A stretch of 64,000 nt of DNA from Hericium rajendrae. Lineage: Eukaryota > Basidiomycota > Agaricomycetes > Russulales > Hericiaceae. The stretch is from positions 1,612,001 to 1,676,000 of the forward strand of contig CM065885.1 of the NCBI GenBank assembly GCA_033439255.1. Direction: 5' to 3'. Positions 9,545 through 58,106 of the stretch are shown one piece after another. How positions within the stretch are numbered: position 1 is the first letter of the stretch; the number at the start of each line of letters is the position of its first letter. Below the pieces are notes generated by a model. That model worked only from the letters and a program-made list of their open reading frames with translations, was not told where the DNA came from and searched no databases. The translations under genes and the position numbers were made by a program.

Positions 9545-9880
9545 CAGTCAATGGTGTGACTTTGGCCGCAACCTACGGGCCAGACAAAAGTGGCCTAAGG
9601 CCGTAAGTTACGGGCTGGTCAAAGCCAGCTGGAATCACCGTTTTTGGTCTGTAAGCCACGAACCAGCTGGATTTGGGAATAGACCGTAGGTTACGGGTCG
9701 GCTTGCATAGATATGTACCGCAGTCTATGGTGCAGCTCGGTCACCCATATTTAATGCCTCGCAAACTACGGCCCAGCTCAACTGGCCTCGTCCCTGTCCG
9801 GATTCACCAGCCCGGTCTCGGACCACTGCATGGACATTCGGACTCGGACTCGGACTCGGATTCGGACTTGTATTATTCGG
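9545..9880 (+). repeat. Left terminal inverted repeat of the KDZ element
   Basis: From TGACTTTGGCCGCAACC (about 9557) to the GGACTC repeats (about 9880) this is the reverse complement of 57775-58096, with roughly eight differences seen. It contains several short near-palindromes of the form CCGTAAGTTACGG and CCGTAGGTTACGGG, possible transposase-binding repeats. The outermost ~12 bp (9545-9556) are less alike than the rest. Confidence 0.85.
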
Positions 9881-9900
9881 ACTCGGATTCTCACTTTACT
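9836..9900. repeat. GGACTC/GGATTC hexanucleotide microsatellite at the inner TIR edge
   Basis: Tandem CGGACT/CGGATT hexamers run through this stretch. The same array, reversed, closes the right inverted repeat at about 57770-57815. Between here and P1 (9900-10133) scattered ACCGGAT and TTCGGACT motifs continue as sub-terminal repeats; no gene is seen there. Confidence 0.75.
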
Positions 9901-10133
9901 GGACTCTTAGTTCACCGGATGACTGGATTACCGGTAATCCGAACTACCGGACTACCAGAGGGCTGAAACATCGGATTATTGGAGTACCGGATTCAAATTC
10001 CAATGCTTCAGCTCTTGACAAATTTCCGGACTGGGAATGAAAAAATAGATTCGGACTGGTACAGAAATTTGGAATACAGCAGATTCGGACTCATGGACAG
10101 ACACAAAAAGAATGCACAGATCAATGATATGAA

Positions 10134-11814
10134 CTACTTATCTCCAACGTTGCTATCAGAGGATTCTCCCAATTCTGAGTCCGTCGAAAACTCGTCAGTA
10201 GGAAGGGGCATATGAGTGTTGACCCAGCTGAATTGGTCTGCGACTGTGTCAAACCGATGTTGGACCTCTTCAGACAGGTCATCATGGTCCTGCCGAAGAG
10301 TCGAGAGAGCGTCGGACAAACCAGGGACTTCACACTCTAAGTCGGCAACCTGTCGAGAGACATCGTCGAGCTTGTCCTCCAAATCCTTCATACCCTCCTT
10401 CAGCTCCTGTCTCATCACCGTCACACTCTGCTCCAGAGAAGCTATGCGATTGAGGATGACGTTGCCCTGCTCTGCAGCTAGGGAATACCGCTGAAGGCCT
10501 TTCTCCAATTGCATGGACACATGATCAACATTCTTATGCAGCCCTTTGATGTGCTGGTCAATGTCATGCAGCATATTCATGTTAACCAAGCCGGTTTGGC
10601 CATAAGAAGCTGCGACGTTGCCTCTTTCGTACCGGCTGAGCTCCGGAGTGGTCGTCCCTACGCTAGATGGACCAGGTGCCGACTGGCACTCCTGAGAAGC
10701 TCGGCTACCTGCACCAGTTCGGTCTTTGTCGGTCCGCGTCTGAAGTTGTACTAAAGATTGGGCCTTGGCCTGGATCCACACCATAGGTACATCTGAAACC
10801 GATGAGATCATGCAACGGAAATGATACATGAACTAACCTTTTCCCGGGGCGGTCTTCGGATCGATGTTGTCGTGCGGCAGAGAGCTCGGACTGCTAGCCC
10901 GGAGATAACGACTCTGGACGATTGGCCCATGGAATGCTCTGCCAGTGATCGCACTGGGCGGCGGCGGTCGTTGGAGTGCAGGTTCACAATTCCGCCTCTT
11001 TGCCGGTACTATAGGCATCGTCGGCATTAACACGTCTCCACTCCCGATGACCTGCGGACTTCCTACACAACAGCTGTTAATGTGCAATACAAGATTACTA
11101 TGAGACAACACACCTTTGCGAGTTGATCCATTATCCTCATTGCCCAGCTTATCCTCCACTGCAATTAGGCCCTCCTTATCCCCATGCTGACGCTTGTCTG
11201 GAGCTGCAGGGCCTAAATCTGAAATCAGTGCAGAACAAGGAACATACAACAAAGTCATTACCTTGTCCTCCCTCCAACATTGTCGTCGGTCTGATCCCTC
11301 CCCTCGACATCCGGAACCTCTCCACTGCCCGTAGGAGTGACTCTACAATGGTTCCATCAGGTGCTAGCATCACCCCACTGCCTCCACCATAACAAGTCTT
11401 GTACCACTCCGCAACCTTGATGAGCAAAGGGGGGAAACTCTCCAAGATGCATTTCCCACCTGAGGGACGGTCAATCCGAGTGCTAGCTTCGAGGTGCTTG
11501 ACTTCTGCAATCGCCTTTTCGATGACGACCTGCGATGCGCGTCAGGGTGTACGTAGCTGGAAGATAGCATAGACACTTACTGCGTCACTGCAAATGCGAG
11601 CGAGGCACCACGGCCTGTCTACCATCTCCGCATCTGCCACGTTGTCAAGATCTCTTCCAATCCGATATTCCATACTCTCAACAGTGGCCCGGAGAGTCGT
11701 CCAGTTGAACGTTACGCTTGTGGAAGAGCGAGAAGCGGTAGTGTGGCAGGGCATTGGACAAGGACATTCCGCACGATGGGCCTCCCTAACACTCACAGAC
11801 GACAGACCATGCAT
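10134..11814 (-). CDS. P1: coiled-coil cargo protein beside the left TIR, multi-exon
   Basis: Function not recognised. At least five exons read on the minus strand with short GT-AG introns (for example GTAAGTGTCTATGC...CATCGCAG near 11580-11529, and introns near 11264-11222, 11113-11063 and 10838-10792). The early exons read RATVESMEYRIGRDLDNV and VVIEKAIAEVKHLEAS. Their exon break and spacing resemble the N-terminal region of S, X and Z. The middle is Pro/Ser-rich and probably disordered. The last exon (231 residues with its intron read-through) carries a long heptad-like segment, LNRIASLEQSVTVMRQELKEG, and an acidic tail. It is transcribed outward toward the left TIR, mirroring S at the right TIR. 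The start at 11814 is uncertain; another exon may lie upstream. Confidence 0.6.
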
Positions 11815-12167: not shown

Positions 12168-13206
12168 ATGTCTTCCATTGCGGACCTCAATGCAGCGTAC
12201 TCCGCTGCTTGTGACTCGGTCGGTCTTGGTCTTGTTGCTGCAAGGGCAACATCCCCGTTGATGCCTCCGGGCATGCGTGTCGCCTGGGTGCATGGCTTCA
12301 TCCAGTGTTTGGTGTGTCACCCTCGGCTACCATCTCCGCTTCTATTCAGTGCTTTGTAGGAGCATGCCGACGCCATTCGAGCGAGCACGGCCAACGTGTC
12401 CGAGGAGACCGCACTAGTCCCCGTCCCCTCGTTCATGCGCAACACCATGCGAGTCCTCTCGTCCATGCGGCCCGAGAACGTCGATCTCCACGCGCTCTCC
12501 GATTATGCGTATATCGATGGTCTCAGTCCGTCATACTGGATGGCAAGGTCGGAGCAGTTCTGTGGTCATCGCTGGTGGGAGGATGGTGCGTTCCTGATTG
12601 TCATGAACAAATGTGTCAGCTGATGTCCATCACAGTACAGATCTCTGACGCATCTTTCCCCATCTTTCACCTTCCACAAGACCTGGTCTATCCAATATAT
12701 GATCCCACCCCCTCCGCCTATACCCTCCCTCCTCTGGAGCTCACGCTCGCAGGCCCCATCAACGCTGACGCCTGGCGCGGGTTGTTTGCAGAGTCGCCGG
12801 AGTCTCTGCAATATGAAGGGCATCGCGCTACCAGTAGTACGTATCCCTCCTCAACTCTTCTGTCATTGCTTTTATACTGACATCGCACCGCTCAGACCAG
12901 CCGGACCAGCCTGCTGTGGGTCGCACGCCTCCGGATGTCGACATGGGACATCAATCTCATGCCTCCGCACGGCGGCAGCGACCCGCAATGATGAGTTCCG
13001 GAGGGCGGCTGCCCCAGCCTTTGCGCGTTGTTCCGGCACCGCGCGGAGTCTCCGCGCGCACGCCAGACAACACGCCGGTCAACCGCTCATTGGTCCGAGA
13101 GGGTCTTCGACCGCTTGCTGCACTGCGGAGGCCAGCCCTGCCCCCCGTGTTCAGTATACCGAAGCGGCCGATGCGCAAAGCCGCCGGTAGCTCCAGGGTT
13201 GATTAA
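12168..13206 (+). CDS. X: cargo-family protein with GLRP/LRRP C-terminal motif
   Basis: Function not recognised. The start MSSIADLNAAYSAACDSVGL aligns with MDSVNVLNASYLILSVRVGL of Z. The next exon, after an intron ending GTGCTTTGTAG (about 12361), contains SFMRNTMRVLSSMRPENVDL and ends GHRWWED, matching the WWEN exon end in Z. A third exon (about 12657-12840) reads PLELTLAGPINADAWRGLF. A last exon after CACCGCTCAG (about 12898) ends with REGLRPLAALRRP and PPVFSIPKRP. That C-terminal motif recurs in Y and Z. Unlike Z and S, no Cys6 cluster follows. It is divergent from P1, with about 350 bp between the starts. Confidence 0.6.
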
Positions 13207-15828: not shown

Positions 15829-16767
15829 GTGAAACTGCCGACGACTGGCATCGAACTGGGTGAGCCCCATACGGCTGCCACTTACGAATCACCAGAGTCT
15901 GAGCCGGACTTCGTCGATCGCATGCTCCACAATGACATCGTCACCACCGCGATCCAGAACGGCTACGAGGCAGGTCTGATGGCTGGGCGAAAGTCAGGTT
16001 TCGCGAGGGCATGAGGGGTTGGTGGGAAGCACGAAGGCAGGACGGAGCGCACGTCATGAGGAGGGTCCGAGCGAGTGCACTAAGCAGGGTAGCCTTGAGG
16101 TAAGCACCCCCGCATCACTCGCCATGTCAATCGATGAGATCGACACTGACTTCCTCATGCACATATGCAAAGAGGCAGAGTATGGGGTCTGGGAGGAAGG
16201 ACTAGAAGCAGGGATAACGATGGGGAGGAAAGAAGGCAGAAATGACACATACCGGGAGGGATACAAAGCCGCGAAACGCGAGGTGAGTACCGCAACCAGC
16301 GCCCCAGATGAAGCTCCTGCAATCGATACATTCCCGCATCTCATGATGTCTTCGACACCCCGCACCAACTCGACACCCCCTATTCCATGCCTCGCACCAC
16401 AGAGCTATTGCTTGCTCCTGGACTGTAACACCCTCGGCCTGCACCCATTGTCCCGATACCGTGCAGAGTCTCTGACCGTGCACGGGACAGCACACCGGTT
16501 GACCACGCATTGGTCCGAGATGGCCTTCGTCCTCATGCTACCCTGCGGAGGCCAGCCCCGCCACCGGTGTTTGGTATACCAAAGCGAAAGGCTCGCAAAG
16601 CTGCCTGTCGCTCCAGGATTGATTACTTACTTTCATGTATTGAACTGGTCACCCCGCTGGCACTATGCGGGGGTCACCGGCAAGGCAACAGGGGTGAGCT
16701 CTTACTTGGAGGAATGCTCAATGTTTACATCATAAGTGAGAAGGGAGTTCCTTTCGGCGATGCGTGA
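15829..16767 (+). CDS. Y: Gly-spaced repeat protein with GLRP/LRRP end, probably spliced
   Basis: Function not recognised. One exon reads DIVTTAIQNGYEAGLMAGRK (about 15930-16000). A second reads EYGVWEEGLEAGITMGRKEG then YREGYKAAKRE and ends at a clear donor, GAGGTGAGTACC, near 16281. These are copies of one module with glycines every four residues or so, and they match the repeated blocks to the left. The final exon (about 16455-16630) reads RDGLRPHATLRRP and PPPVFGIPKR, the same tail as X. The homologous stop seen in X is absent, so the frame runs to 16767. Exon joins were not all resolved; partial loss of function is possible. Confidence 0.45.
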
Positions 16768-16836
16768 ATTAAAAATACATGTGGTAACCAAATTTCGTAA
16801 TTCGAGCCAGGCTCCCCCACAGGTTCCGCGCACCCT

Positions 16837-18821
16837 TCAATCCTCTCCTGTCAACGGAGACTGCAGATAGTCCCATTCTACATCTGCAAGGCTTCGCAGC
16901 TCCTCCACCTGGTTGATCGTGATTGTGCAATGCTTGATGATGAGAGTGAGCCGTGTCCCAAATGTTGCATAGCGATGGGACAGGGATTGCTTGAGAATGT
17001 AGCCAATGGCATAGGAAGGACGAGAAACCTCATATATGGACCACGGACTATCCCGAGGCCTGGGGTAACTTGTATTAAAATCGACTTCCATGAACTCGAT
17101 ACGTAATAGATTTCTGAAGAGGTGCGGGAACGAGTCTGGCATTGGGACCTCGTCGACTTCATCTGAGTCCAGGATTGTGATCGGCTCGACTTCATCTTCC
17201 TCCGGAGGAGGGGGCATAAAGGAGCGGGGTGCGGCTAAAGCCATACAGAGCGTACGGCCACTGTCGCCCTTCACCGCGATGGTTTCAATGCCGGTGTAGG
17301 CATGGAAACCAGAGAGCCAGTCGCGAAAAGTGATCTTCTCGATGATGTAATTGTCCCAGTGTTCCAAACCGTGGTCCTCTCCAAAGTCCAGAACAAGATG
17401 CCGTATCTGACGTTTGGTCTCTGTGCTTGGGACATGATTGAGGTCCTCTATCATGGGGCGCCTCTCTGGAGGTCTCTCATCGTCATACCCATCGGTATTG
17501 GCGTACACGACAACCGAGATGTTCGGGAGATCTGGGTCAAAGGTGGGATGGCCGGTGTGATCGGAGAAGGGAGGATATCCTGATAAGTAGATGTCCCAGG
17601 CTAGGTTATAAGAGATAAAACCGATGCGCATGCTCAGGGGATGGGGTGAGATGTGGCTATCAATGAATGTTGTGAGTGGGGCAAATTCGCCGGCCTGAGG
17701 GTGATCGCCGAGGATGAGGATATTGCAAGAGGGAGGTACAGTGATGTGCTTGATGACATGTGCCATGTGCAGGAATGATTTGTCCTGACATGTGAATTTT
17801 TGTAGAGAACCGAATGTGACCACAGGCACGACGGGAGGAGGGGAGGGGAGAGGAGGGAAGCAGTGGGAGAGAAACAGCATTTGAAGGTTGGACATCTGAC
17901 CGAGAGCTTCGAGCATCTCTCTAAAAGCGTTGACGCTGGGTGGAGCAACAGGAGGTGCCTCTTCAGATGCTACATAGTCCGATGGATGGTCGAAAATAAT
18001 CTTGTGGTCAGGATCAATATTTAGCAGATCTGATTGGGTGGATTTATTATTAATGTGGAGATTGGTGAGACCACGTAGAATACTCCCGGACCACACCGGG
18101 ACGACGCAACGAAGCGTCATCTTACGTAGCAATGGAGCATGATTGTCGAAGAGGTCAGCGGGGAGCATATCGATACCTTGATAGGAGGACCATCTAGGGA
18201 GCGCATAAATCACTGATTCAATCATCGGGGCTGGATGGGCCATGGATGGCCAGAGGTTTTGCATGCTGCTGACAAAAAAGTTTTGGAGGGAAAGGTCGCA
18301 GATGCAATGGATTGTTCTGGAGAGCAGCTCGACAGTATCCAAGGTAGGGGGGTTCCATCTGGTGTAGGTGATAGAATAAGAGAGGGGCAGAGACCGGGAC
18401 CGGATGACCATTGCATTTCGCAATGGCGTACGGAGTCCGTCGCTGATGGTAGTCCAGAGGCTTGGATCCTCGAGTGCCCTGGATCTCAAAGTGCGGCAGA
18501 CATGGGTGACATTGACCCACCCTAGGTCTTTGGGACCCGGCCGCTGGTTGGCAGCGAGAAAATGGACTATGCGCGTGCACACTTCGGTGGGGATGCGGAT
18601 CAGGGGTGATAATCTGTTTCGCCGGGCACGAGCATCGAGGGTGAGGAGGAGTAGCTGGTTTAGCTCCTCGTCAATGGCAGCTCGCTGCTGTTCTATATCA
18701 ACTGGGTCAGGGTGTACAGGAATCCTGGAAGGGGATGCGAGTAGTCAGTAATCCAAACATTGATGGATGAAAGATCCCGCCGGACTTGCCTCAAGATCTG
18801 GAAACTTGATCCGGTTGACAT
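16837..18821 (-). CDS. F-box/LRR-like protein 1
   Basis: It is probably a substrate-recognition protein of SCF-type ubiquitin ligases, of the large Agaricomycete F-box family. Exon 1 (18790-18821) is only 32 nt. A 65-nt GC-AG intron (18725-18789) precedes the long exon 2. After the joint the protein reads IPVHPDPVDIEQ, a charged helix, then the F-box-like segment LIRIPTEVCTRIVHFLAA with LGWVNVTHVCRTLRS and PSLWTTI. Leucine-rich segments follow (LTNLHIN, LQMLFLSHCFPPLP). The C-terminal third contains GRTLCMALAAP and SPLTGED at the stop. Total is about 640 residues. It is paralogous over its whole length to the gene at 52120-54081. It looks intact. Confidence 0.8.
18725..18789 (-). other. GC-AG intron of F-box gene 1
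   Basis: The donor is GCAAGT and the acceptor CCTTCCAG, joining ...ATCTTGAG to GATTCCTGTA in frame. The paralogue at 52137-52194 has the same non-canonical GCAAGT donor at the same codon position, so the intron predates the duplication. Confidence 0.75.
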
Positions 18822-19832: not shown

Positions 19833-22800
19833 TCATACATTTGACGAGCCTTCGCTTGCGTTTCTCTCACCCTGGGCATCCGGAGGGATGGTATATGAGG
19901 CACTCAATAACTCTAATTGAGCTGCCCGAGATTCCAAGTCCCGCAACTCCCGGAGCAGGGACTCTCTCTGATCCGTTATCCACCTGATTACGATTCCTTA
20001 GAATCGTTTACTCTATACCGCCTTTTCATAGTGAAAACGACACCAAAACGATGACTATGCCCATTAGGCAGTTGGCTTATATAATCACATATCTTCAATC
20101 TAACGAGTTTGCAGGTTCAACTCCAGCTCTAGCCAAACTTTGTTGATTTAATGTAACTTGATCAGTTCTCAACCAATTCACCTGTTCTCAAATGCATCTG
20201 GATCTGCTCATTTATTGCTTTCTGACAGTATTTTTTGCATCCTGATCTGTGCAGAACTCATAGAATGCAATGAATTTCTACATTTTCCCTTTATGACACT
20301 TGAACTTGAGCTAACTCAGTCCATTCTTCACCGATTTACTTGTTCTCAAATGCGTCTAAATCTACTCACTTATAGCTTTGCTACCATACTTCATGCATCC
20401 AAATCGGTTAAGAACTCACAGAATGCAAAGTGTTTCTTTTTTTTCCTGTTCTAAAATGCTTGAACCCTAGCTAACTAGGCCAATTCTCAACCAATTTACT
20501 CGTTCTAAAATGCATCAGAATCTACTTATTGATAGCTTTCTGACGGTACCTTAGGCGTTAGGATCGGTGCAAAACTCGCAGAATGCGAATTGTTTCTGCA
20601 TTTTCCCCCTAGAATGCTTGAACTCCAGCTAACTTAATCAGTACTCAACCGATTCACTTGTTATCAATTGCATCCAAATATACCAGAAAGCTGGTCTCTA
20701 ACATAATTTACTGCTTATAGAAAGATACAGCCACTAAAATGATACACAGCAAACAAATGTACATACTGTTTATTGATAAAATGAGCAAAAAATGCAATTT
20801 ATCGGTAGCAGTGGGTCCTGAGACTCGGTCATGTGATCTTACAAGACCTTGTGCGGCCGAACAAGGTCTTAGCGCCTGCTTACATAAGCATAAGTCGGTT
20901 AGAGAGCCAATACACTGTATACAGTGATTGCTTTATAGCTCTGCAACAAAGCAATCAATCGACAAACGGTAAATTGTGTTCATATATCTTGGATTACATC
21001 TTTCCAACCCAATTTAGAATACGAAAATCGGATCACTGTAAGCAGAGATATTCCTCGATTTATATGCTATATTAGCAAAACAGTATTGTCTCCTATCTCA
21101 ACAACCAATGGTGCTATGATGTTGTACACTGTATTGTTAGAAAGCTATTGTAAATCTGAGTTCAACAAGCCCTCATACATCATGATTGATGCAGTATCAG
21201 CAGAGCTATAAAGCAAACAGTCTGCCACATCATCATAGACATATAGTCCAATACGTCAGCATTTTGTCATGCTATTTTGTTGTTTGTGGCACTATTCTAG
21301 AGCTATTGTAAATCTGATTCTAACAAGCTTTAACTCATTCTGATTGATGTGGTATTGAGAGCTCTATGGCCTGATCTCTATGCCACATCATCAGCAGAAA
21401 GTTGGTGATGGCCCCACACCATCATTGGACACCTCAGCCGCAACTCGCTGCAGATGGGGACTGGGCGTGTCCAAGCCTTGTAGTCAGTGTGCACTACTGG
21501 TAGTATCACACTGACTTCAAAGCTATCTGAAGAAAAGAAGAAAGAGCAGAGAGCACAACATCAACTACTGCTGACATAAGCTAAGCACAGCCACCAGACC
21601 TTGTGCGGCCGAACAAGGTCTGCTATTGATCACGTGATTGGCCATTAGCTTTGTTCAATAACACAATGTTTGACATTGATCATATATTCAATCTTGAATC
21701 TTGTTTGATTAGACATACAACTAGACTACTATTATAATTGTAGATATTACAAGTATTTATAATATAAGCATATATAATAGTGTATATCATATATCGAGCT
21801 GAGTATAATAAGATATGACAAGTGTGTACTGTATTACATACCAGATTATATATATAATAAGGTACTAAGATATATAACATAGCAGAAAATATAGAGTTAT
21901 CAGAGGTAGGAGCTGAACTACTCATGATTAGATTAGATTAAACAGTGTTTTTTTATATGCTTTAGGGTTCGACACGAGTCAGAGTCACCTGTAGGTCAAC
22001 ATGGGTATACCCATAAAATTGACCTGCAGGTATCTAACTTGTAGATCTAGATCACCTGGTGGCTGAGACCTGTACAAATCCAGATCAAGGTTGTGCTCAA
22101 ACCCATTGACCTGTGAGTGACCTGTGGGTAACCTGCTATCCAAACTTTATTTTGGTTAACATATTATATTGCAAAGTTCAAATCTATATGTCATGATCCC
22201 TAACTAACTACATACTATATGTCATCTGCCAACACTAACTTACAGCTCCAATCACATATGCACATTATCACTATATCTTGTCATACCCATGAAGTGTATA
22301 AAGTCTACAAGCAAGGCATGGATTCAAAAGGCTGCATACGACATACTTGTAGCATCGACATGGGCATGTGCATGTCGGTGGGGCAGCTTTAAGTATGTGT
22401 GTGCACATGGGCTGGCACATGTGCAAGGGGAGCATATGTGGGTGCTGGTGTACTGGCATAGCTGTGGGCATGCACACACAAATGACATCACCAGCTTGGA
22501 TGGAAATTGGGAATGAGACCGGGGAGGGTGCATTTTGATTGTTGAATAGCACTAATGGCATATAAAACTTGCCTCACATTGGGCTTCTGTCAGATGAATG
22601 ATATGACAGCATGCATAGTGGCATGTGTGATGTCCATGGGCATGAATGCACACATGTAGTTTGAGCAATGGACTATGGGATGGTGGGGGCATGTAGTCAA
22701 AAATGTGTATGCTGGCAGGGCATGTATTGGTAGATGCACACTGTCTCAGACATGCAAGGATATGCAAAGCTGTTTGTAGACAACTGCGCATTGTTGAGGC

Positions 22801-41884: not shown

Positions 41885-43482
41885 TTACAATGAAAAAGGT
41901 AATGATGCGTGAGTCTGCGATGACTCGTCCGTTACGTCGGGTTCGGATGGGATGTTGAACTGACTGTCATTGCACCAGTCCGGTGCTTTGACGATCATGC
42001 GCTCGTGCACTGCATCTCTCATCCAAAATGCATAACACACCCTGTCCGGTTCACATTCTGAGACTGCATGGATTACCATTTTTGAGCAGACCGCAGCTAG
42101 TGTCCCGGACCTGTATGCAAACCTCAGGTTGAGATTCTGGAGGTGCAGTTCTGCATCAGGATATGTGCCGATCGTCGCCAGGAGATCTGGCCATTCGGCG
42201 CGACCTCCCATATCTCTATGCGGCATGGTGGCCCGGTTAGAGATGATCGAGACACCACTAAATGCAGATGTCCAGTGGCACATCACTTCACGAAACTCCG
42301 GCATATCTCTGAGCCGTTCCAACGTGCATATGCCAGCCTCGTGTAATTCTGGGTATATGACCCCAAGAATTGCACTCATGATCGCGCCTGATTCCTGGAA
42401 TGCTAGCAGCCATTCTTTTGCCCGCTGGGTCTTGAGGGAGACAGACGTGTAGAGGGGAAAGTGAGTGTCCTACAGCGAAATCCAGGTACACACTGAATTC
42501 TACATCGACGATAGAAGGAAGGGTCTCATACCTCATGGCCGAGTGCAAACCATGCTGGGGACAAATCTACAAAGCCAGGATGCAGGGTGCAGACTACCGG
42601 ATTATGATAAAGGTTTTGAGCATGACGAGTCAGAGACTTCATGGCTTCGGACCTCGTTCCCTTGGACCTCGAGCCTGCTGCTTGCTTCGCGGACTTGACA
42701 ATGCCCGATCCTGCTGGTCCTGGATTCGTCGGCCCATTCTTTCTGTAAATTTCAGTCCAGCTCCTTTGGAAGAGGGGCTCGAGGATCTTTGCAGCATTGA
42801 ACATGATGGCCTGCACAAGCAATTGATCAACACAATGACGGGTGATGTCAAATGCGAGTTGCCACCTGTCGTTCCAGGGACAGCACACCTGGTAGGTACC
42901 ACACCAGGTGATTGGTGTGTGTATCCGAGACCGTCATTGGGACATCAATCAGAGGCCACGAGGTATTGTTGGTACCCCAGGTTAGGCCCGGGTAACGCCG
43001 GTGTAGGGATGCTTCTGTCGTGAGTTGAGTCCGGTGTATTTCTTCGGAATGCGGCTGGCGTAACGCTGTGCATCCCAAGTCATCCGGACTGAAGTTACAT
43101 CAGTTTTCAATCATCTCATTTTCAAATTGATACACATACTACGGTTTAGAAAAGCAGCAACCAACTCCCGGGCAATATAATCCAGCTCGCAGCGCAGGCT
43201 GGATGACAGCATCCAGTATGGGATCAGGGCAGGATTGGCAAAGTCGACCTTCTGGTGGTTAGCCAAATAGCAATGAAACATGTGTTTCAGATAGATTGAG
43301 ATTGCTTCGACTTCGGACATCTCACTTGGGGAATGAGCGGAAATGAGGATCAGCGCGGAAAGTAAGGCTGGTTGGTCGCGGTCTTTGATGTGGCAGAGGT
43401 TTGTCACCAAGCATTCGGCTATCCACATGTGCTTCGGCAGGAGATTGCCGGTGATGGATTCCTCATTCGGCCTGTACAGCAT
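41885..43482 (-). CDS. TET/JBP-family 2-oxoglutarate/Fe(II) dioxygenase
   Basis: This family oxidises 5-methylcytosine in DNA, with fungal members in several KDZ elements. The C-terminal core reads GVSIISNRATMPHRDMGG (metal-binding H and D), WPDLLATIGTYPDAELHLQN, FAYRSGTLAAVCSKMVIHAV (second metal-binding H) and ECEPDRVCYAFWMRDAVHER (arginine near the 2-oxoglutarate site). Upstream are NHLVWYLPGVLSLERQ, ILEPLFQRSWTEIY, HPGFVDLSPAWFALGHE and KTQRAKEWLLAFQES, in fungal TET/JBP order. Introns lie at about 43124-43075, 42870-42816 and 42530-42469. The first exon (43482-43111) has no known domain and might be a separate gene. The 3' end is 157 bp from the transposase start on the same strand. It looks intact. 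Confidence 0.8.
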
Positions 43483-43654
43483 TGGACAAAGATCGGATCA
43501 TATTGGTTACCTTTGAAGACCGTATGTCTGAGGACGTACATGAAAAACAAAAAAAAAGTCAGTCCATGTCGTTCCGCTGCACTATAATCCATTTGCTGAT
43601 CAGTTTGCCTTCTTCCGCCCCTTCCCTCAGTTCGCCCCTCCTACTTTCAATTTA

Positions 43655-46600: not shown

Positions 46601-48823
46601 TCTATGCAGACAAGCATCTAAGCATGCTGGCGAGTACACCAAGTCGTTCGCCACACAAATGCGGTCACATCTTGGGATGTCCGTAGTGGTCCTGGGGACA
46701 TGGCTAGACGAAGAGGGGACGGCGGTGGTCCGGAAGTATGATCTAACCTTTTCCATAGTCGAGTGATATTGAATGAATCCAGGTTCGATTACAACGGTGA
46801 CCTCGGACGGCCAACCCTCGCAGAAGCAGTGAAGGACTGGGATGAGCAGCCAATGATGTCGGCCTGGACATCCTATGCCGAAGCTCTATATGGTATGCAG
46901 AATTTCATGCTTTGGTCTGCGGTGCTGACTCCAGAAGGTCCCGGGGATGATTCCAATGAACCAGGCCACGCAGTCAAGAAGTCCAGGAAACCAACTCTAC
47001 AGTTGATCTACAATCCAGACGGAGGTGTTACAATACCTGCGGATTTCGAAGAATACACGCCAGATTTGTTGATATCGCTGATAAGGGAGTTTCTAACCTT
47101 TCATTACAGTGTGTATTTTCTGTGATGAACATGCTTGGCCCGGCTAATGCATTAATTCATCAGCACGCGCCAATCCGAAGGCATCGGCAATTCCCCGGGC
47201 GAAGATAAAAGCTGATGGCTTCGAGAACTACATTGACCCGATGTACCTTCCTACGGGATACGTTTGGGAAGATCCATCACGCATTAATAGGCAGGAACTC
47301 AAACCCATCATCGAATTCTGGCAGAACCGGGAGTCCGATGGCCTCACTGTATTAGAGTTCAAGGTGGTCGTCGTGAAGGGCGAGTGGACCCCTGTGATGG
47401 AGATTCCATCCGACAGCGAGGGCAACACCGGGGGAGGAAAGACTGTCCGGATTCGTCGACGGAAGGAAATTCAAGCACGGTTTGCAGACCGGGATGTGCC
47501 CAACCCTCAGGATGTCTCGGACGCGGAAGCTGAGAAGGATGTCGAGATGGTTGGCATTCCCTCGGGTCGCAAAAATGCTCGGACAAAGGATCATAATGGT
47601 TACGACGAACATGGAGAGTTTTTCGACCTGGGCTCTTTCGGATCTGAAGAGGAGGATGTGGATGATGTTGAAGACGTTACGCCATTGGAAACCAGTCTAC
47701 GAGTGACAAATGCTGGGAAAGCTAAGGCTTTGCAACAGCTTAGGGAACGGCGTGCGGGGACCATGCCTTCGAACAATAAGTCCAAAAACAAGGCTCGGAT
47801 TGATCCACAAGTCGGTCTGGACTCAGATGGCAGTCCGCTGAAAACACCAGAAAACTCGGCAAAAAATGAAAAAGCCAAGTTTGCCTTCCTCAGCGGTCTT
47901 TCTGGACTGCAGTTGTATCAAGACCTCGTGCTGGAGATCTCATTGTGCAGGGTACGCTGTCCCAAAATATATGTCATGTTGGTTATTTGATCATACCTTC
48001 AGCAGGGACATCGCACTACAGCAGACCCAGACCATCCTGACTGGGCTACATTTGACTATCCAAGGCCATGGTTGCCGCGCCATGTTCATGCCAATGTGAA
48101 TCCCAAGTCTGAGATACAGTGGCTATTGGACCCCAAGACGCCTTGGCGTAATTGCGATGGAGACATCTTGAGCAAACCAGCACTGATGGAGGTGGCCTTG
48201 GCGTATGGGCAACTGCTCCAGGATCTTGAAACTGCACAGATGGGTGCATCGGACTCTGATGATGAAAGTCGGCCTGATGCAGGGGTCCCGGACTATGTTC
48301 AGAACTCTACAATTCCGTTCCGTTACCTCGGAAAGTATGTTGAACTGCAATGCATTACCATGAAGGAGGATCTAGAGAATGCTCGCACAGCATACTCTGA
48401 AACCACTGGAAAGAATATGTTGCCTGCAGCTGCACCATCTGCTGGTCCCAGCAAGAGAATTCGCAAACAGGCTCTGCCTGCTCGGGCTCAGATCGAGAAG
48501 AGGGGAAAGGTACAATCACCATCGGATGCCCCAGCTGCACCTGAGAAGCAAAAGTCACAGCATCAGTCGTCCCGGGCTGCACCCCCTCCAGCCGCCTTGT
48601 CTGAAGCCCTGCTTGGCTCTCCCAGCAAGCGGAGCGGCCGCACACGGGTGCCCACTAAGAAGATGGCAATGTGAGTATGCCATGTCATTGACTGGTGGAA
48701 ATTCGAAAATCATTGTTGTCGTAGGATCATTCCAGAGCAGACGGCCCAACGGGAAAAGAATGCCGCTGCTTACAAGAAGAGACAGGAGACTGCGGAGAAA
48801 AAGAAGGCTGCTGCACGTCGGTG
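43655..48823 (+). CDS. R: large KDZ-associated protein of unknown function, split by an insert
   Basis: Function not recognised, though the protein recalls uncharacterised proteins next to Agaricomycete KDZ transposases. Exon 1 starts MPRGPLPQKKSKSVKTDLSE. After an intron (about 43868-43920) it continues LIHEWLLKHGRHRLRKADSF to YEEYAASGK. Coding resemblance then stops at about 44195 and resumes at about 46610 with KHAGEYTKSFATQMRSHLG and LGTWLDEEGTAVVRK, then SRFDYNGDLGRP, DGFENYIDPMYLPTGYVW, a long acidic/basic middle, YPRPWLPRHVHANVNP, a Lys/Pro-rich tail and a short last exon ending AEKKKAAARR. The sequence between is an AT-rich insert. One apparent intron near 46739-46761 would be only 23 nt, too short for comfort, so the frame there is doubtful. 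It is divergent from TET/JBP, starts about 170 bp apart. Confidence 0.55.
44200..46450. mobile_element. AT-rich non-coding insert in gene R
   Basis: The left edge is dense in CTACAGTAGC/CTGTAG motifs (44205-44345). The right edge has GAGCTACAGAAGG and GCTACAGTATC (46370-46425). Inside are a GGTGGGCAAGCA-type minisatellite (44500-44800), a purine tract (44900-45000), an inverted stretch around GCCATATTTGGCAATCTGG (45060-45085), and phrases like CAAGCCCTCATGCCCC (45530) and GAGCCATCATGCGACCTG (45826) shared with the LTR element. It is probably a non-autonomous element or several; exact ends are unclear. Confidence 0.5.
44500..44800. repeat. Degenerate minisatellite of GTGGGCAAGCAG type
   Basis: Units of about 8-12 bp such as GTGAGCAGGCAA and GTGGGTGGGCAA repeat for 300 bp with strong G/C strand asymmetry. 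The Pro/Cys/Leu/Thr-rich frames on the minus strand are translations of the repeat. Confidence 0.8.
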
Positions 48824-49049
48824 AGCCTTCTGATCCAAGAGCCAGGTTTTGGTGCCCTTGGACAATGTCTGCTGCATTTCTGTGAACTGCATGGGCAACC
48901 GGTCTGCGATGATGTGCTATTTGTTCCTACGGCATAGGCTTAGAGTACTTTCGAATAACACAGTCATGAGAGTACAATGCACTGGTATTGATTCGCTTGC
49001 TCCGCATCACTCTGCTCTGAGTTCCAGGACATGTCAGTGTTCATGACAA

Positions 49050-50530
49050 TGAGATGGTCGATGGCCATACCAAAGCCGCAGCCTGCGGCTTGAGTGATGA
49101 AGGAAGGAAGAAAGGAAGGTTTATTCCGCAGTGGTCCCATTCCGGAACAGAGCGGTGTTCATACTACATAGTCAGGCACAAACTACGCTATGTACACTCA
49201 AGTCATGTAACTACTCCGATCGCTGTCGAGGATGACGCACATAGACGACAAAGTAGAAAAGACAAACACACAGAATTGAACAGAGAGAGCAGTGTAGCGG
49301 GTGAACTGATGAAAAACCCACACCAGGAAAATCTCTTTTTGAGGGAAAAACCTGTGTGTGGGTAAACTAGGCTGCCACAAGACACATGAATCATGACCCG
49401 ATGAAAGATCCATGCAAAGGAAAACCTCAGATGAGACCAAAACCGACGCCATGGCAAAACCGGGTCAGTACCGAGCGGGGATGAGCCCGCGGCAGGAAAA
49501 CCTCCCGCAAGGGTAAACCCATGCACGCGAGAACCTCGTGGCTATGAGACCGGGTCAATCCTAGACAACGTCCCATAGAGACACGACAAGAGTGTGAGGG
49601 ACCAGCCAGCGCACGAGCAAACAGAGACATACCACATGCGAAACTTGTGCAGAAGGATGAATGAACACGGGCGAGGCAGCAAAGACCTCGAGCACATCGA
49701 AGGTGAACTTCGCAAGCATGTCGAGGATGCCCCGCTCGCGCACAAGGCTCTTTGTGATCGAGCGTGTATCGTGAGACCCGAACAGCGTACGAGAGCGCGT
49801 TGGACCCAGGAACTGAGAGGCACGTTCGAGGAAGGAAGTGCGGAGGGAGCAAAGTGACGGGTGAGCACAGCATTCCAACAAGGCATGTTCGGGGGATTCT
49901 ACAGCTGCTTTACAGAAGCGACAAAGGCGTCAGCATCGCAGGATGCGAGGCTGATGTGCAGAAGGACGGCGCAGGTCCTTGCAAGCCAGATGGTGGTCGG
50001 TGAAGAGGAGGCGTGTGAGGGCTAGTCGGTGTGGTGGGATTCGGACCTGGAGATAAGGCCTGAAATGGAAAACCGGCTGGCTGGGCAACTCACCGTGATG
50101 TACAATCTCCGTCCGTCCATTCAAAAGCGTCGCACGAGGGGAAGCATTGATGACAGCAGACCAATGTGTGCGCATGGAAGCGGTAACACGTGCGAGAATG
50201 TCTGGTATTTGCTTTGCTGTCAATAACGGACAGCATGACGTGTACCAGGAGAGGCAGAGTGTGCAGGACATAAATAACGTCTGAAGCCCATCCGGGCACG
50301 CCATCAGCCGCCAAGTGGAGAAATGCGCGGAATGCATGGCATACGAGGTGGTCCGGCGGCTGCAGCGAGGCGTAGTGAACGAATGGGAGGAGGAGGAGTT
50401 GCACGCGGCGATAGCGCAGCGGTTCCAAACTTGTCTCGGTATAGAGGAAGGCGAGCATCGACCGGGCGGAGAGACCTAATAAGCGGCGAAAAAATGCATG
50501 CTGAACATGCTCCAAAGATGCGAGCAAGGT
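49050..50530 (-). mobile_element. 5'-truncated LINE (fungal Tad-like) remnant
   Basis: On the minus strand 50527-50090 reads VQHAFFRRLLGLSARSMLAF, ETSLEPLRYRRVQ and GWASDVIYVLHTLP, the region downstream of reverse transcriptase in fungal non-LTR elements. Further on (about 49880-49600), ALLECCAHPSLCSLRTSFLE resembles the terminal CCHC-like region. The frame shifts several times and the polymerase is missing, so it is a dead 5'-truncated copy. The 3' end is near 49060, with a TTCCTTCCTTC-like tail just inside at about 49100-49120. The 5' break is about 50530, beside a minisatellite. Confidence 0.7.
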
Positions 50531-50557
50531 TGTCTGCCTCGTGTCGTCTACGTCATG

Positions 50558-50712
50558 CTTATTCGCCGTGTATAGGCTAGAATTGGTCTATGTGGTGCTT
50601 GTTCGCCGTGCATTTAGGCGACAACTGTTCTATGTGGCGCTTGTTCGCCGTGTATAGGTGACAACTGTTCTATGTGGCGCTTGTTCGCCGTGTGTAGGCG
50701 ACAACTGTTCAT
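50558..50712 (+). repeat. Four ~40-bp tandem repeats
   Basis: The unit begins CTATGTGGCGCTTGTTCGCC and continues GTGTATAGGCGACAACTGTT. It is present about four times with a few differences, the first and last partial. It lies between the truncated LINE end and the W promoter. Confidence 0.8.
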
Positions 50713-50884
50713 GTGTTCTTGCTCAGGACAACTGGTCCCATGTAGACATTTCACGTTGAAGATCATTGCCGTCTGGGCTGTTGGTCCGGGCAGATTTCCA
50801 ACACCTTTGCACCCTTCTTCCTGCAAGCTGCAGACGGACATTCCGGGTGTCGACCTCAGGTCATTTCGCAGTCGCCTGCTCGTG

Positions 50885-50985
50885 AGTAGTATAAATATGT
50901 CCCTGTTCCTCCTCTTTCTCTTCACTGCTATCTCTTCCACCCGCTGCTTCCCGTCTCCCAACCCACTCGCTCTTCGTGCTGATCA
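50885..50985 (+). promoter_or_regulatory. Probable promoter of W
   Basis: GTATAAATATG (about 50889) is a good TATA box, followed by the pyrimidine-rich leader (50905-50980) common before basidiomycete start codons. The coding start follows at 50985. Confidence 0.4.
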
Positions 50986-51841
50986 TGCCTTCTCTTTCTC
51001 CCTTTTCCTCGCCATCTGCAACTGCCCACACTGCTCACACCGGGATCCGACGTTCACCTTCATTCGAGCGGATGCGCGAGCAACTTTCTCAGATGGAACA
51101 AGCAGTTGCCATCGCCTCTCGCCAAGTACACCGTCTTCGCGAACAGTGTGACGAAATGAAAGAAATCCTTGGCACTGTCATCCACAACTTCTACGACGCG
51201 CAAGACAGGATTGACATCCTCCATCTTCTCATCTGTGACCGACGTCATGGCCTAGCTCAGAATTCCGGTCAGTCTCTCCTCTGCATTTCCCTTCCCTTAC
51301 CATGTTCAACCACCCCCCTCCAGACCTCCCTCGTCACAACATGCCTCCGGGAACCCCGTCCGCCCGATCCTTTCCACCACAAGACCACGTGGAATATTGG
51401 TTATACCTCTACACAACGTATCCGCATCTCACACCGGCTGGCATTTCCGGTCTCGATAATACCGTAACACCGCATCTCGTTCGCGCATGGCAATTCGGCG
51501 TAGAGACGGGGCCGGATGAGGGGGACGAAGGGGATGGGGTGCTCGAGATGATTTGGATGATGGAGCTGGCCAGCATTTTCTCGGTCGCTGGGTTATTCGC
51601 CCAGATCGAAGTTGCGATGACTCGTCCGCGACCGCGGTCTGACTTTGGCTTTCCCCGTCCTTATCCCGGGGACTGTGGTCACATCACCCCTCCCCAAGTC
51701 GTCGACCACCTACTTCGATGTGGCATCAACGACAACCTCATTGCCGGTCTCGAGGAGATATTCATTTCCCGAGCGAGATCCTTTCCAACTGAGCCCACGA
51801 CGATCCCGCCGGATGCACCGGATGCCGAGGATGTCATGTAG
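50985..51841 (+). CDS. W: two-exon cargo protein with N-terminal coiled coil
   Basis: Function not recognised. Exon 1 starts MPSLSPFSSPSATAHTAHTG. It contains a coiled coil from FERMREQLSQMEQAVAIASR through LREQCDEMKEIL and ends at donor GTCAGTCTC (about 51268). The intron ends CCCCCTCCAG (about 51325) and exon 2 continues in phase with DLPRHNMPPGTPSARSF. Exon 2 has a Pro/Tyr-rich segment (DHVEYWLYLYTTYPHLTPAG), a hydrophobic helix (LEMIWMMELASIFSVAGLFA) and an acidic tail ending DAPDAEDVM. Total about 267 residues; looks intact. It lies just upstream of F-box 2 on the same strand. Confidence 0.6.
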
Positions 51842-52119
51842 GGTCCATCCATCATGGCGCAGGCTCCACGTGGCTTTCAGAGGATCCTCATTATTAGATA
51901 CGCGTCGTGTTTTGATGCACGCCTTGTTTTGATGCCCGCCTGTTTGCTTGTTATTGATTCTCTAGGTCCGCAACTGTCAGCCCTGTCATGTCGATGTAAC
52001 GTAGTGTGACTGTTATTCTCCCTTGTGTGTAAGCCGGACACTTCGTGTACTTAGTCCTCCTCCACTCAATTCCCATTTCTCTCTTCGTTACCAAATATCT
52101 GTGCGTTGAAAAGAACACC

Positions 52120-54081
52120 ATGTCTGACGGTACAATGCAAGTCTGCTCTCGATCCGTTGTCCATGAATGGTAGTGTCTCACATCCCTGTTACAGGATCCC
52201 CACGCACACCGACCCGCATGATATCGAGCGAGAGCGACGTCGGCTGGACAAATTAATAAAAAATGTAGATGGAGAGCTCGTTGCTGTCCGCGCCTGTGGC
52301 AACGACCCGCATGGCATGGGGGACGTCATCCGAAGACTGAGGACGGACCGCACTGCCATCTGCACCAAGCGAAATACACTATCACCTCTTGCCTGCATCC
52401 CCATTGAATTGCAAAATCGTATCTTGCACTTCTGCGCTGCTAACGAGCCAGCATCCATGAAAGGCCTGGGGTGGCTTCACATCACGCATACCTGCACCTT
52501 TCTCCGAGTCGCCGCATTACAGGATGGCAGCCTGTGGACAAATATTTGCACGGGATTATCTCAGCCCTGGAGAGAAGCCCTGGTGGAACGCTCCCACTCA
52601 CTGCCCCTGTCCTACAGGGATGTATATTGGAGGCATAACATCCCCACCCCGCATACCGTTGCACTCCTGGCGCAATGCATGCGTCGCATCTGCCATCTTT
52701 CCCTTGTCAACTTTATCTCAGGTTCCTTCAACCTGATTCGATCCCTGGTCCATCCGGCGCCGATCTTGGAATCGGTATTTCTTGCAGTCCGGTTACGGAG
52801 CGGCCGTGTGGGTATCCTCCCCGCAGACCTCTTTGAAGAGCAAGCGCCTTCGCTCCGCATGATGATGCTACATTACCTTGTCCCGACATGGTCCGCATCA
52901 TTCATGCGCAACCTCACCAAATTGCACATAAATAATCACTTCACGTCAATTTCCGACGTTATGAACATTGATTCTGAACATGATGGCATTCCCTACGCTG
53001 AATCCGAGCATGAGCCACCCGCTGCTGCTGGTCCATCCCCCGAGAAGGCCTTTCTCGATCTCATCCTTGCTTTATCGCAAATGTGTGGGCTAGAGACATT
53101 GTTCATGTCTCACTGCTTCCCTTCCCAGCCTGACCCCCTCCGGACGTGCCCATGGTCCAACTGACTCGTCTCCGTCACTTCACATGTGAATCAAATTCAT
53201 TCCTCCACATCGGCAATGTCATCCAGCATGTCCACATACCTCCCTTATGCGATGTCTTCATCCTAGGCTATGCCCCTGAGGTGGACGATTTTTCCACCGT
53301 GACCCATTTTCTCAATAACCACGTTGCACCTTATCCTATGACGATGCGAGTCAAGCCTGTCTCGTCATCTGAGTCCTGGGACCTGTCTTTCTGGGCCGAT
53401 GTTCCTCTCCCTCAAGACACGGACTATCCCCCTGGCAGTGCAGATATCCCGTGCACACGTGTGGTTGCCCATGTCGCCCGCGAGAGGTCTGAGGGAGTAT
53501 TGCACAGGCACCTCCTCGAGCCCTTGGACCATTGTCCAAGCCCAGAGACTAAGGTCTCCATCCGACACCTGATCGTGGAGTCTGGCAAGGATCATGGTTT
53601 AAACTGGGCCCGCAAGTCCGGCCACGAGAACCTGCGGTCGAGCAACTGGATCTCCCATTTTGCCAGTTACACCAATATTCACACTGTATCCGTCAAGGGC
53701 GACGTTGGCCGCACATTATGCATGGCACTTGCTGCCCCCTGCTCGTACATGCCGAAGCTAGAGCACGATGAAGTCCAAGAAACGATACCCCCGGACTTCC
53801 CGCATCTCTTCAGAAATGTCACCCAAATCCATTTTTCAGAAGTGGATTTTGACACTGAGCATCCGAGGATTGAAAACCGTGAATTCTTTGCCCCTCGTCC
53901 TTCTTACGCTGTTGGCTACATTCTCAAGCAATCCCTGGCCTATCGCCATGCAGCGCTTGGGACACGGCTCACTCTCGTTATGCAGAACTGTGCAATCACA
54001 GTCAGCCAGGTGGAGGCCTTGCGAACCCTTGCGGATGTGGAATGGGACTCTGTGCAGTCTCCGTTGACAGCAGAGGATTAG
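52120..54081 (+). CDS. F-box/LRR-like protein 2
   Basis: It is paralogous to the gene at 16837-18821, with the same predicted role in substrate recognition for SCF ubiquitin ligases. Exon 1 is only 17 nt (52120-52136). A 58-nt GC-AG intron (52137-52194) leads to IPTHTDPHDIERERRRL and the F-box-like LACIPIELQNRILHFCAA, LGWLHITHTCTFLRV and GSLWTNI. Leucine-rich segments follow, then FPHLFRNVTQIHFSEVDFD, SYAVGYILKQSLAYRHAALG and SPLTAED at the stop. Two overlapping frames are needed: the reading frame changes in a C-rich stretch at about 53130-53150, just after LFMSHCFPSQPDP, where gene 1 is continuous. No intron borders fit there, so this is a single frame break or a sequencing error. Confidence 0.75.
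52137..52194 (+). other. GC-AG intron of F-box gene 2
   Basis: The donor GCAAGTCTGC and acceptor CCTGTTACAG join ACAAT to GATCCCCACG in frame. The donor and codon phase are the same as in F-box gene 1. Confidence 0.75.
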
Positions 54082-55333: not shown

Positions 55334-55632
55334 GTTTAAGTGGACTAATAGTGACAGGTTTACAAGTGCATTCTAACCTTGTTCAGGACTGTTTGTTTTG
55401 TGGTATTGTCAGACATATTGTTTTGAGAGGACAAGAACAGGACAAGCAGACGGGACCCAGTAAAGGCATTCTCGGTCTGCATGGAGGTGTCGCCAATATG
55501 TTGTCACAGTCACGCATCACGGTCACCTCGGATCGCCCATCCAGCGGCTATTGCCGGATGCTGTGTCTGCCAGCACAGTTGTACTGTTCCCCCTCCCACG
55601 CTCACTTCGTTGACATTGTTCGCCCACCCGGT

Positions 55633-57490
55633 ATGACTACTACTTCAGAACTCCTCGGCAACCTTCAATTGCACGAGGCCCGTGTGGGGTGTGCCCTGGT
55701 CGCTTTGAAGAAGGCCATTGAGATTCAGCCGATGTCGAACAAGCGCCGGGAGTGGTGGCACCGCCGATTGTTGAAAGAATGTGTAAGTTCTGTTCTAGCT
55801 TTTAGCTTGTACATTTAGCTTACTGGGGTCATGTTGTTAGGACACAGCGTCTTGCATCATTCAAATGCTCAAAGTGATGGACAAGAACAAGACATTCGCA
55901 TTACCCCCGCTGATCCAGAGTGTTGGCAGGAATTTGGTTGGTCTCATAAGGGCGAAGAAATTGTTGGATCCGAAGACCTTCGCGGGCACGGTGGACTCCT
56001 TTTCGGAGGGGAGGGATGATTGGTCGAAGTGTGTGGGGAGAATTCCATTGTCAGAGCATTGGTGGGTTTCAGAAGATTTGGATCACAACACAACCGTGCC
56101 CTCCCCCCCCCCCCAGTCCCGGGAACATCACGTGGGGCCACAGAATGCCTTCCTACCGAGTCTGTGCGGTCTGCTGAGTCCGTTGACGGTGGAAAGACAC
56201 CTGCTGCGTCAACCAGCAGACCGATCTGACCCCCTGCTGTACAATCCGCGGGACATGCCATCTTAGCAACGACTGAAATGGCCGTTAAGCCTGTCGGTTT
56301 CACATCTGCACCCCATCCGGCACCACTAAGCACTACTCAGAGCGCAACAACTGATGATCCTCTGGAGAGAAACGAGCAGAGGCCATCCGGATCTTCGATC
56401 ACATTTACAGAAGACCGCCGCATCCCAGCCCAGATTCCCTCTGGAGCTCCAACGACCCTGGCCCTGACTGCGCCGGCTCCACCAGTCCAGTCCGGCCTCC
56501 AAGTCGCACATAATGAACAGCTCGATGTGGTTATGGCAGGCAGTCCGGGGGATCAGGAACTGGACCGACCCCATCACGCCGAAGTGGAGAGCTCTCCGGA
56601 CGTGCAGGATCCTCCTGCAGGTAACGGAGCGGGAAAGAAGGGTAAAGGGAGTCCTATGCCCGATGGGCCCCCAGACGACCTACCTGTAGTGGTAAGCATA
56701 TCTGCCTTTCTCTTGTTTGTTCCTGCATGCTAAAGTCTTCATTCAGTCCCCACCTTGTTCCCCCTGTAGTCGAAAGGGTACTTGATGCGTACAGTCTGAA
56801 AATTCGAATGGAGCATGCTGGTGGTGTTGGAAACGCCGGGCTAAGTGTCCCTTGGCAGGTGGGCGGGGCAAGACCCGTAGAACAGGCAAGAGAGGTTCCG
56901 ACGGAGAAGCCGGGGAGCGGGAAGCCGGGGAGCAAGCGGCAGAATGAGCTACCAACGTCTTGGGACGGAAACGTAAAGGTAATCCACTCCATCGCCGAGA
57001 GTATGGGGGCTCATTAACCATATTTCTAGGCCCTCCGAAGTCCGCGGAATATGTTGTCACGGACGACGATGGAGCAGAACCAATTCCTGCTGCACCTCCT
57101 GTGGGGAAGAAACCCCGCACGCTGCCCCCACATCACCCGGACCGAGAGGGTAGTCCGTCTGCAGCTAGAGGATTGCCAGGCGCCAAGAACAGCTCTAATA
57201 GTCGTGTCACTCTGACCAGTGATGTGAGCTTGCACTCAATTCGGGACCTCGCACAACGCTCATGGTCAACGGCGCAGTCTCTCCAAAGCCAGGTTGATGA
57301 CCTCAAGGAGGAAGTGTGCAAGCTCCGAGGGCTCATCAAGACTCACGCACGTGACAACAGTTTGGGGCAGCAGCGCCTGGAGGAGGACTACGTTGTGCTG
57401 CAGGGCCAGATGCGAAACCTCCAGGTGGACCAGAACACGTTGAAGGACCAGGTGGCACACGTCACAAGGATCCAGGTCGAGAGTGCGTAG
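55633..57490 (+). CDS. S: zinc-cluster and coiled-coil cargo protein beside the right TIR
   Basis: Likely a DNA-binding regulatory or structural protein; target unknown. Exon 1 starts MTTTSELLGNLQLHEARVG, with REWWHRRLLKE before donor GTAAGT (about 55782). Exon 2 reads KVMDKNKTFALPPLIQSVGR and ends near SEHWWVSED, the same layout as X and Z. A long Pro/Ser-rich stretch follows (56278-56693). After intron GTAAGCATAT...TCATTCAG (56693-56747) comes CSPCSRKGTxC then CWWCWKRRAKC: Cx2Cx6C-x9-Cx2Cx6C, as in Z. The x is a TGA codon, the only stop in that block. The last exon (about 57031-57490) has a long coiled coil, LQSQVDDLKEEVCKLRGL and onward. It is transcribed outward toward the right TIR, mirroring P1. 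Confidence 0.6.
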
Positions 57491-57774
57491 TCACAGTCAG
57501 TTCCTCATTATTTACATTTTATTTAGTCAGGCATGGATTCTCGTGCGCATTTATCAGTAGTTCCCTTCATCGTGTGGATAGTCCGGCTGAGAAAGTAGTA
57601 GTCCGCAGACAATACAATTGTATTCTGATTCTCGTATACCGGTCCATTGCACGCTGAAACCGGTTGGCCCAAGTCCGTTGAGTGAATCCGAATCTGCAGC
57701 CAGATTTGAGCATAAGTCCGAGGCCTAAGGATCTGAGAATCTGAAATTCCGAGTCTGAATCCGAACCCTAGTCC
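57491..57774. repeat. Sub-terminal region with TCCGAATC-type repeats
   Basis: Scattered AAGTCCGA, GAATCCGAA and GAGTCTGAATCC motifs lie between the S stop and the right TIR. They mirror GGATTCGGA/ACCGGAT motifs at 9890-10090. They are possibly sub-terminal transposase-binding repeats; no gene is seen. Confidence 0.45.
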
Positions 57775-58106
57775 GAATAATATAAGTCCGAATCCGAGTC
57801 CGAGTCCGAGTCCGAATGTGCATGCAGTGGTCCGAGACCGGGCTGGTGAATCCGGACAGGGATGAGGCCAGTTGAGCTGGGCCGTAGTTTGCGAGGCATT
57901 AAATATGGGTGACCGAGCTGCACCGTAAACTGCGGTACATATCTATGCAAGCCGACCCGTAACCTACGGTCTATTCCCAAATCCAGCTGGTTCGTGGCTT
58001 ACGGACCAAAAACGGTGATTCCAGCTGGCTTTGACCAGTCCGTAACTTACGGCCTTAGGCCACTTTTGTCTGGCCCGTAGGTTGCGGCGAAAGTCAATGT
58101 ATTGTG
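57775..58106 (-). repeat. Right terminal inverted repeat of the KDZ element
   Basis: Reverse complement of 9545-9880 with about eight differences by eye, including the GTCCGA hexamer array at its inner edge. The outer end reads CAATGTATTGTG, followed by the TGCCACATC flank. Confidence 0.85.

Follow-up and report, generated by a model that had tools for sequence, protein, structure and literature searches.

What is the 48.6-kb block of DNA that lies between two long inverted repeats on contig CM065885.1 of the basidiomycete Hericium rajendrae, and did it arrive there in one piece? We examined a gap-free window of 64,000 bases (assembly GCA_033439255.1, positions 1,612,001 to 1,676,000, forward strand; coordinates below count from the window's first base). 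A first-pass annotation, made from the letters alone, had placed a KDZ transposon at 9545–58106, with a 9-bp target duplication and about a dozen genes, inside one interrupted long terminal repeat (LTR) element. Our analysis makes it very probable that the block is a single KDZ-superfamily, Kyakuja-like cut-and-paste transposon spanning 9545–58108, which inserted as one unit carrying a transposase, an AG-type TET/JBP gene, a pair of F-box genes and other genes. We see in it a variant of a known transposon superfamily, oversized and loaded with genes.

The ends of the element and the retroelement it interrupts

Comparing the window with itself yields one long inverted repeat pair, 334 bp long and 97.0% identical (9557–9890 against 58096–57763; E 3e-159), as the annotation of both ends had anticipated. 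The full terminal inverted repeats (TIRs) measure about 340 bp each; the left one (9545–9890, plus strand) begins with CA, and the right one (57763–58108, minus strand) ends with TG. No further copy of these ends turned up in the self-comparison, either inside the element or elsewhere in the window, and a reading as two head-to-head KDZ copies was rejected because the ends have no internal copies. Scans of viral and prokaryotic contig collections for exact 36-bp inverted-repeat matches, together with three protein scans, gave nothing usable (one unconfirmed pattern match), and such collections say little about absence.

Directly outside both ends stands the 9-mer TGCCACATC (9536–9544 and 58107–58115). 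Across the window the 9-mer has 10 copies (6 on the plus and 4 on the minus strand) and the 7-mer CCACATC 17 and 13, so that the weight of the direct repeat comes from placement at both ends and not from rarity; seven matching bases at two random points arose in 20 of 200,000 trials. With the right end set at 58108, the two termini align ungapped and match at 53 of the first 60 positions, compared with 13 of 60 for an end at 58106. Because the ends align without gaps only in the former register, we prefer a 7-bp duplication, CCACATC (9538–9544 and 58109–58115, plus strand), to the 9-bp duplication first proposed; seven bases also agrees with published Kyakuja elements. The element is thus best read from its sequence as 9545–58108, or 48,564 bp, with a 9-bp duplication the less likely reading of this one site. 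The left boundary stays where it was first drawn and the right one moves to 58108. On the right, the additional TG of the 9-mer would then be the final dinucleotide of the element itself; on the left it would match by chance.

Both flanks belong to one retroelement, in keeping with the initial annotation. Its 5' LTR (5750–6236) and 3' LTR (59384–59870), both on the plus strand, are identical at 485 of 487 positions, and the pentamer GCTAG lies outside both on the plus strand (5745–5749 and 59871–59875) as the retroelement's own target duplication. Between the LTRs and the insertion lie a left internal part (6237–9537) and a right internal part (58116–59383), both on the plus strand, the latter with a purine-rich tract before the right LTR. 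A 41-bp phrase in the right flank, starting 11 bp from the insertion, is found again in the left flank with a score of 47, whereas 100 shuffles reached at most 32 and eight interior stretches, on both strands, at most 31. Because the two nested duplications, CCACATC and GCTAG, lie at the expected places, the arrangement shows, on sequence grounds, that the 48.6 kb sits within a single retroelement and was inserted later than that retroelement.

The host retroelement also has diverged internal repeats (7284–7451 against 8798–8966). Two open reading frames (ORFs) of its left internal part were scanned with Pfam; neither has a recognisable coding domain, and the retroelement may be non-autonomous.

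Transposase, TET/JBP gene and repeat-borne motifs

A KDZ transposase with a CxC-type cysteine cluster and a TET/JBP dioxygenase had both been proposed from the letters, and profile searches bear out both. The transposase gene occupies 38257–41728 on the minus strand, with Pfam matches to the CxC2 domain at 39480–40469 (PF18803, E 1.5e-21) and to the KDZ domain at 38811–39128 (PF18758, E 9.9e-17, 61.8 bits against a cut-off of 26.6). Four proposed GT..AG introns (39815–39757, 39589–39539, 39372–39317 and 39173–39115; 59, 51, 56 and 59 bp) leave a single frame from CxC2 through the KDZ region until an in-frame TGA at 38808–38810. A second TGA, at 40470–40472, may be spliced out as intronic.

Farther on, the gene is interrupted by a palindromic miniature inverted-repeat transposable element (MITE) of 587 bp (37670–38256), beyond which lies a putative C-terminal part of the transposase (36630–37644, minus strand). 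We take this last stretch to belong to the gene from its position and from the usual features of KDZ proteins; no KDZ Pfam match was found in it. With the TGA at 38808–38810 and the MITE, the transposase frame is not intact, which is a matter of whether this copy works and not of family membership. The transposase of this copy is, judging from its reading frame, probably no longer functional and the copy now non-autonomous.

The MITE itself has inner ends CATCA..TGATG flanked by TA, the end type of PlavakaB (PMC12730594). It contains no CpG, and weak relatives (67–69%) occur at 4421–4654 and 4882–5106. A search for direct repeats at its edges returned short matches from its own palindrome.

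Upstream of the transposase and on the same strand lies the TET/JBP gene (41885–43541, minus; PF12851, E 7e-19). Its catalytic frame (41888–42469) is open, whereas that of the transposase is broken. The best match of the protein in the PDB is Coprinopsis CcTET (7vpn, E 1.5e-17), and in this alignment it retains the HxD motif and the distal His. At the positions of CcTET His326, Gly331 and Asp337 it has His, Gly and Asp, positions whose significance we take from PMC12730594; together these residues place it in the AG type. The model is tentative for the exons that precede the catalytic frame, and the N-terminal frame aligns weakly with CcTET (E 0.2). A similarity of frame 43114–43497 to ROR-gamma nuclear receptors (E 0.087 or worse) was taken as chance, and frame 42291–42566, also in the upstream TET region, gave no match.

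Six near-palindromes that follow CCG-N7-CGG (at least 11 of 13 positions) lie in each TIR, spaced 34–48 bp apart: at 9566, 9601, 9649, 9684, 9718 and 9759 on the left, and at 57882, 57923, 57957, 57992, 58040 and 58075 on the right. The left TIR has three exact copies of CCG-N7-CGG, the right TIR four and the remainder of the window 14; among spacings from 0 to 15 besides N7, only 12 is also present in the TIRs (2 and 1 times). The 13-base consensus was built from the TIR sites themselves, which makes its score partly circular. Outside the TIRs it has 30 matches of at least 11 of 13 on both strands and no full match, which is background, since 20 resampled whole windows average 25.75.

The near-palindromes carry CpG, and beyond the first 12 bases the TIRs differ from each other at ten positions, three of them CpG transitions. 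Among 22 stretches compared, the TIRs have the highest ratios of observed to expected CpG (0.93 and 1.02); most other repeats range from 0.00 to 0.51 and other parts of the element from 0.60 to 0.89. The high ratio is only suggestive, because the left LTR interior (0.74) and a copia piece in the right flank (0.65) are likewise high. By analogy with Gal4-type binding, zinc-cluster proteins may bind the TIR near-palindromes. The inner edge of each TIR also holds an array of 5.2 TCGGAC hexamers (9838–9868 and 57785–57815).

Cargo genes, their age and the younger-looking repeats

For gene models we relied on a home-made predictor, which was trained on the window itself; all of them are tentative. 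At a score threshold above 8, the predictor returned 12 models inside the element and 13 in the whole window. The count of about a dozen genes thus holds for models and shrinks for genes: two of the 12 are pieces of the transposase, one lies in a repeat block, and the second F-box gene is represented by its second half. The TET gene was absent from this run and was modelled separately.

F-box gene 1 (16837–18821, minus strand) points left and has a 635-aa open frame at 16840–18744; gene 2 (52055–54081, plus strand) points right and consists of two overlapping frames that meet at 53134–53161. Gene 1 matches PF12937 at E 3.1e-5, its 24.1 bits falling slightly below the curated cut-off of 24.3, and the domain match of gene 2 is weak (E 0.085). 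The two proteins are 48–51% identical (45% by blastp), a diverged pair of paralogues as first annotated. Synonymous divergence (dS), estimated by the Nei–Gojobori method (NG86), is 0.97 and 1.42 for the two halves and 0.57 over the last 84 codons, with ratios of nonsynonymous to synonymous divergence (dN/dS) of about 0.43 and 0.33 for the halves. Because a dS of 0.57–1.42 far exceeds the LTR divergence of 2/487, the pair predates the insertion; it entered with the element and did not originate at this site. By this comparison, the unit must already have contained genes of the pair's age on landing, barring separate recent insertions that brought them in.

Other predicted genes are less well defined. 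Loci at 12.3–13.2, 16.0–16.8 and 34.7–36.3 kb share a short stretch, in alignments of 44–89 aa: a predicted gene at 12261–13206, a weakly coding, short partial relative at 15980–16767, and a predicted gene at 34683–36333, all on the plus strand. The Gal4-type Zn2Cys6 pattern is CX2CX6CX5-12CX2CX6-8C. The gene at 34683–36333 is alone in having it, in the strict form CX2CX6CX9CX2CX6C (35910–36002), and its match to the Pfam Zn_clus profile reaches only E 0.74; no cysteine cluster was found in the gene at 12261–13206. What had been annotated as paralogous zinc-cluster genes is therefore a stretch common to three loci with the strict motif in one.

Near each end, a predicted gene with coiled-coil sequence is transcribed outward: one toward the left end (10134–11754, minus strand; 471 aa), the other toward the right end (55498–57490, plus strand; 562 aa). 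Their proposed paralogy was rejected, as blastp at E 1e-3 gave no match between them. Also on the plus strand are two predicted genes that belong to no clear family: one of 633 aa (46677–48824), in which Pfam matched neither of the two frames scanned, and one of 267 aa (50985–51841), which includes a stretch resembling a coiled coil. Minus-strand frames at 49430–50587, two of which were scanned and gave no Pfam match, presumably resemble the C-terminal end of a long interspersed nuclear element (LINE) reverse transcriptase. Scans for tRNAs and Rfam families returned 0 matches.

Between these genes lies an AT-rich repeat block of 13.5 kb (19988–33536; GC 0.43) that has much in common with 747–3957 and 61399–64000, and one of its pieces matches a copy beyond the element at 99.885% identity across 2602 bp. 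Because this repeat is also found in the window's flanks, we set it apart from the element's core, which measures about 35.0 kb by sequence once the younger-looking block is removed. The claim that everything between the ends is cargo thus stands for the F-box pair and other genes, and fails for the repeat block and for the 587-bp MITE in the transposase gene.

The repeat family consists of inverted and direct pieces with tandem units of about 158 bp; the pieces are mostly 70–99.9% identical inside and outside the element, and their order differs at each place. A single clean transposon was rejected as the source of 19988–33536: six of the seven junction pairs tried lack an exact direct repeat of at least 5 bp, and the one 5-bp match lies off the junction. 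In the right flank, a copia-type gag/pol piece (59876–61398; Retrotran_gag_2, Pol_BBD) is apparently broken at 61399 by the same family.

Competing readings, proposed mechanism and known systems

The most substantial rival holds that a smaller KDZ element, comprising transposase, TET gene and ends, was enlarged after insertion, so that the ends never carried most of the cargo with them. The repeat block, with its piece 99.9% identical over 2602 bp to an outside copy, and the MITE in the transposase gene speak for enlargement, which is probably right for those stretches. As an account of the cargo it is unlikely: the F-box dS of 0.57–1.42 is too great to have accrued since entry into an LTR element with 2/487 differences, and self-comparison found no inverted repeats flanking the F-box genes or the genes near the ends, whose own target duplications were not searched for. 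That the assembly falsely joined separate repeats is, in our view, very improbable; the window is rich in near-identical repeats, which speaks for such an artefact, yet a false join would not make nested CCACATC and GCTAG duplications at the expected places.

Even less credence goes to a pair of small, unrelated elements whose inverted repeats look alike, with a coincidental direct repeat, the case that the first-pass annotation had named as refuting its own reading. The tenfold occurrence of the 9-mer would ease such a coincidence, and solo copies cannot be judged in a window without a third copy of the ends. Against it stand the inverted orientation of the repeats, the matching duplication directly outside them, and the one LTR element, with its own duplication, around both. 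Hardly more believable is the idea that a tyrosine recombinase moved a Starship-like element in which the KDZ and TET genes are mere passengers: size and cargo are Starship-like, but the element has long inverted repeats and an internal KDZ transposase, and no recombinase domain was found in the 34 in-element ORFs scanned with Pfam, a subset of the element's ORFs.

Several observations weigh against a single, complete Kyakuja-like unit. The evidence is one copy and one insertion. The last 12 bp of the two ends match poorly, differing at 6 of 12 positions; the transposase has its in-frame TGA at 38808–38810, and the second F-box copy has an apparent frameshift at 53134–53161. Several cargo genes are home-made models with no domain support, and structure predictions were poor, with a mean predicted local distance difference test (pLDDT) score of 37.8 for F-box copy 1 (3-row alignment) and 36.3 for the 47148–47987 frame. 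Finally, two Laccaria Kyakuja families lack inverted repeats (PMC12730594), whereas those of the present element span about 340 bp; because of this difference we call the element Kyakuja-like and file it only under KDZ.

For the single transposon that we favour, we propose the following mechanism. The KDZ transposase would cut and paste the element via its inverted repeats, which this zinc-cluster-bearing protein may recognise through the CpG-bearing CCG-N7-CGG near-palindromes. The TET enzyme could strip methylation from the element and so make expression or excision possible; its activity probably counters methylation, as has been proposed for such enzymes (PMC12730594). The remaining genes would be passengers or supply accessory functions, and repeats and the MITE probably swelled the unit to 48.6 kb. 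The present copy may either have been mobilised by an intact relative elsewhere or have decayed after landing.

A bolder version of this scheme, which we consider doubtful, is a self-licensing giant transposon. Its TIRs would be methylation-sensitive docking arrays, bound by the Zn2Cys6-type protein, the CxC2 transposase or both, and kept unmethylated by the element's own TET enzyme; the F-box genes might act on host silencing proteins, and the whole would move a multi-gene block. If true, this would make KDZ elements the DDE-type counterpart of Starships in mushrooms.

In mushrooms, TET/JBP genes are known near KDZ transposases; whether these and other genes are enclosed in complete mobile units is a question that has only lately begun to be answered (PMC12730594). 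The nested, datable insertion described here backs such a unit: a transposase, a TET gene and several unrelated genes came in jointly between KDZ ends, which suggests that in basidiomycetes such elements can move multi-gene cargo. The system also offers a direct test of whether mobility is controlled by element-encoded demethylation together with repeat-array ends.

The closest known counterparts are the TET-bearing Kyakuja elements of Agaricomycetes, which likewise have a KDZ transposase, an AG-type TET/JBP gene, 7-bp duplications and CA..TG ends (PMC12730594). The 7-bp target duplications and CA..TG ends are described for Kyakuja by Kojima 2025 (PMC12730594), whose main text uses none of the words cargo, F-box and HMG. 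The Hericium element has the KDZ domain, the CxC cluster, the 7-bp duplication and the CA..TG ends, and departs from the two Laccaria Kyakuja families in having TIRs. Among the literature matches listed, a scope that leaves supplements and the founding KDZ paper outside, we found no KDZ element this large with F-box cargo. Iyer's founding KDZ paper of 2014 is said to mention that some KDZ elements encode extra proteins.

Long TIRs have a parallel in KDZ1-3 of Cryptococcus neoformans, which have been caught moving and combine a KDZ transposase and CxC cluster with TIRs of 241, 139 and 169 bp and duplications of 4–8 bp (PMC12810828). Those elements measure about 9–11 kb and carry CxC1 (PMC12810828), whereas the present one measures 35–49 kb and carries CxC2, TET and cargo. 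An F-box is tied to a KDZ-group element in fish Zisupton as well, through an F-box isoform (Bohne 2012, as cited in PMC12062965); there the F-box is a domain in a transposon protein, whereas here two separate F-box genes lie within the boundaries of a fungal element. PMC12062965 itself states that evidence for transposon capture of F-box domains was not found.

A Marasmius transposable-element library contains elements of up to about 42 kb, of unstated type (PMC9674265), and Starships of 41.9–605.8 kb are reported from the basidiomycete Tremella fuciformis (PMC13066641). Like Starships, the Hericium element is large, boundary-defined and gene-carrying; unlike them, since they use a tyrosine recombinase, it pairs a KDZ transposase with long inverted repeats.

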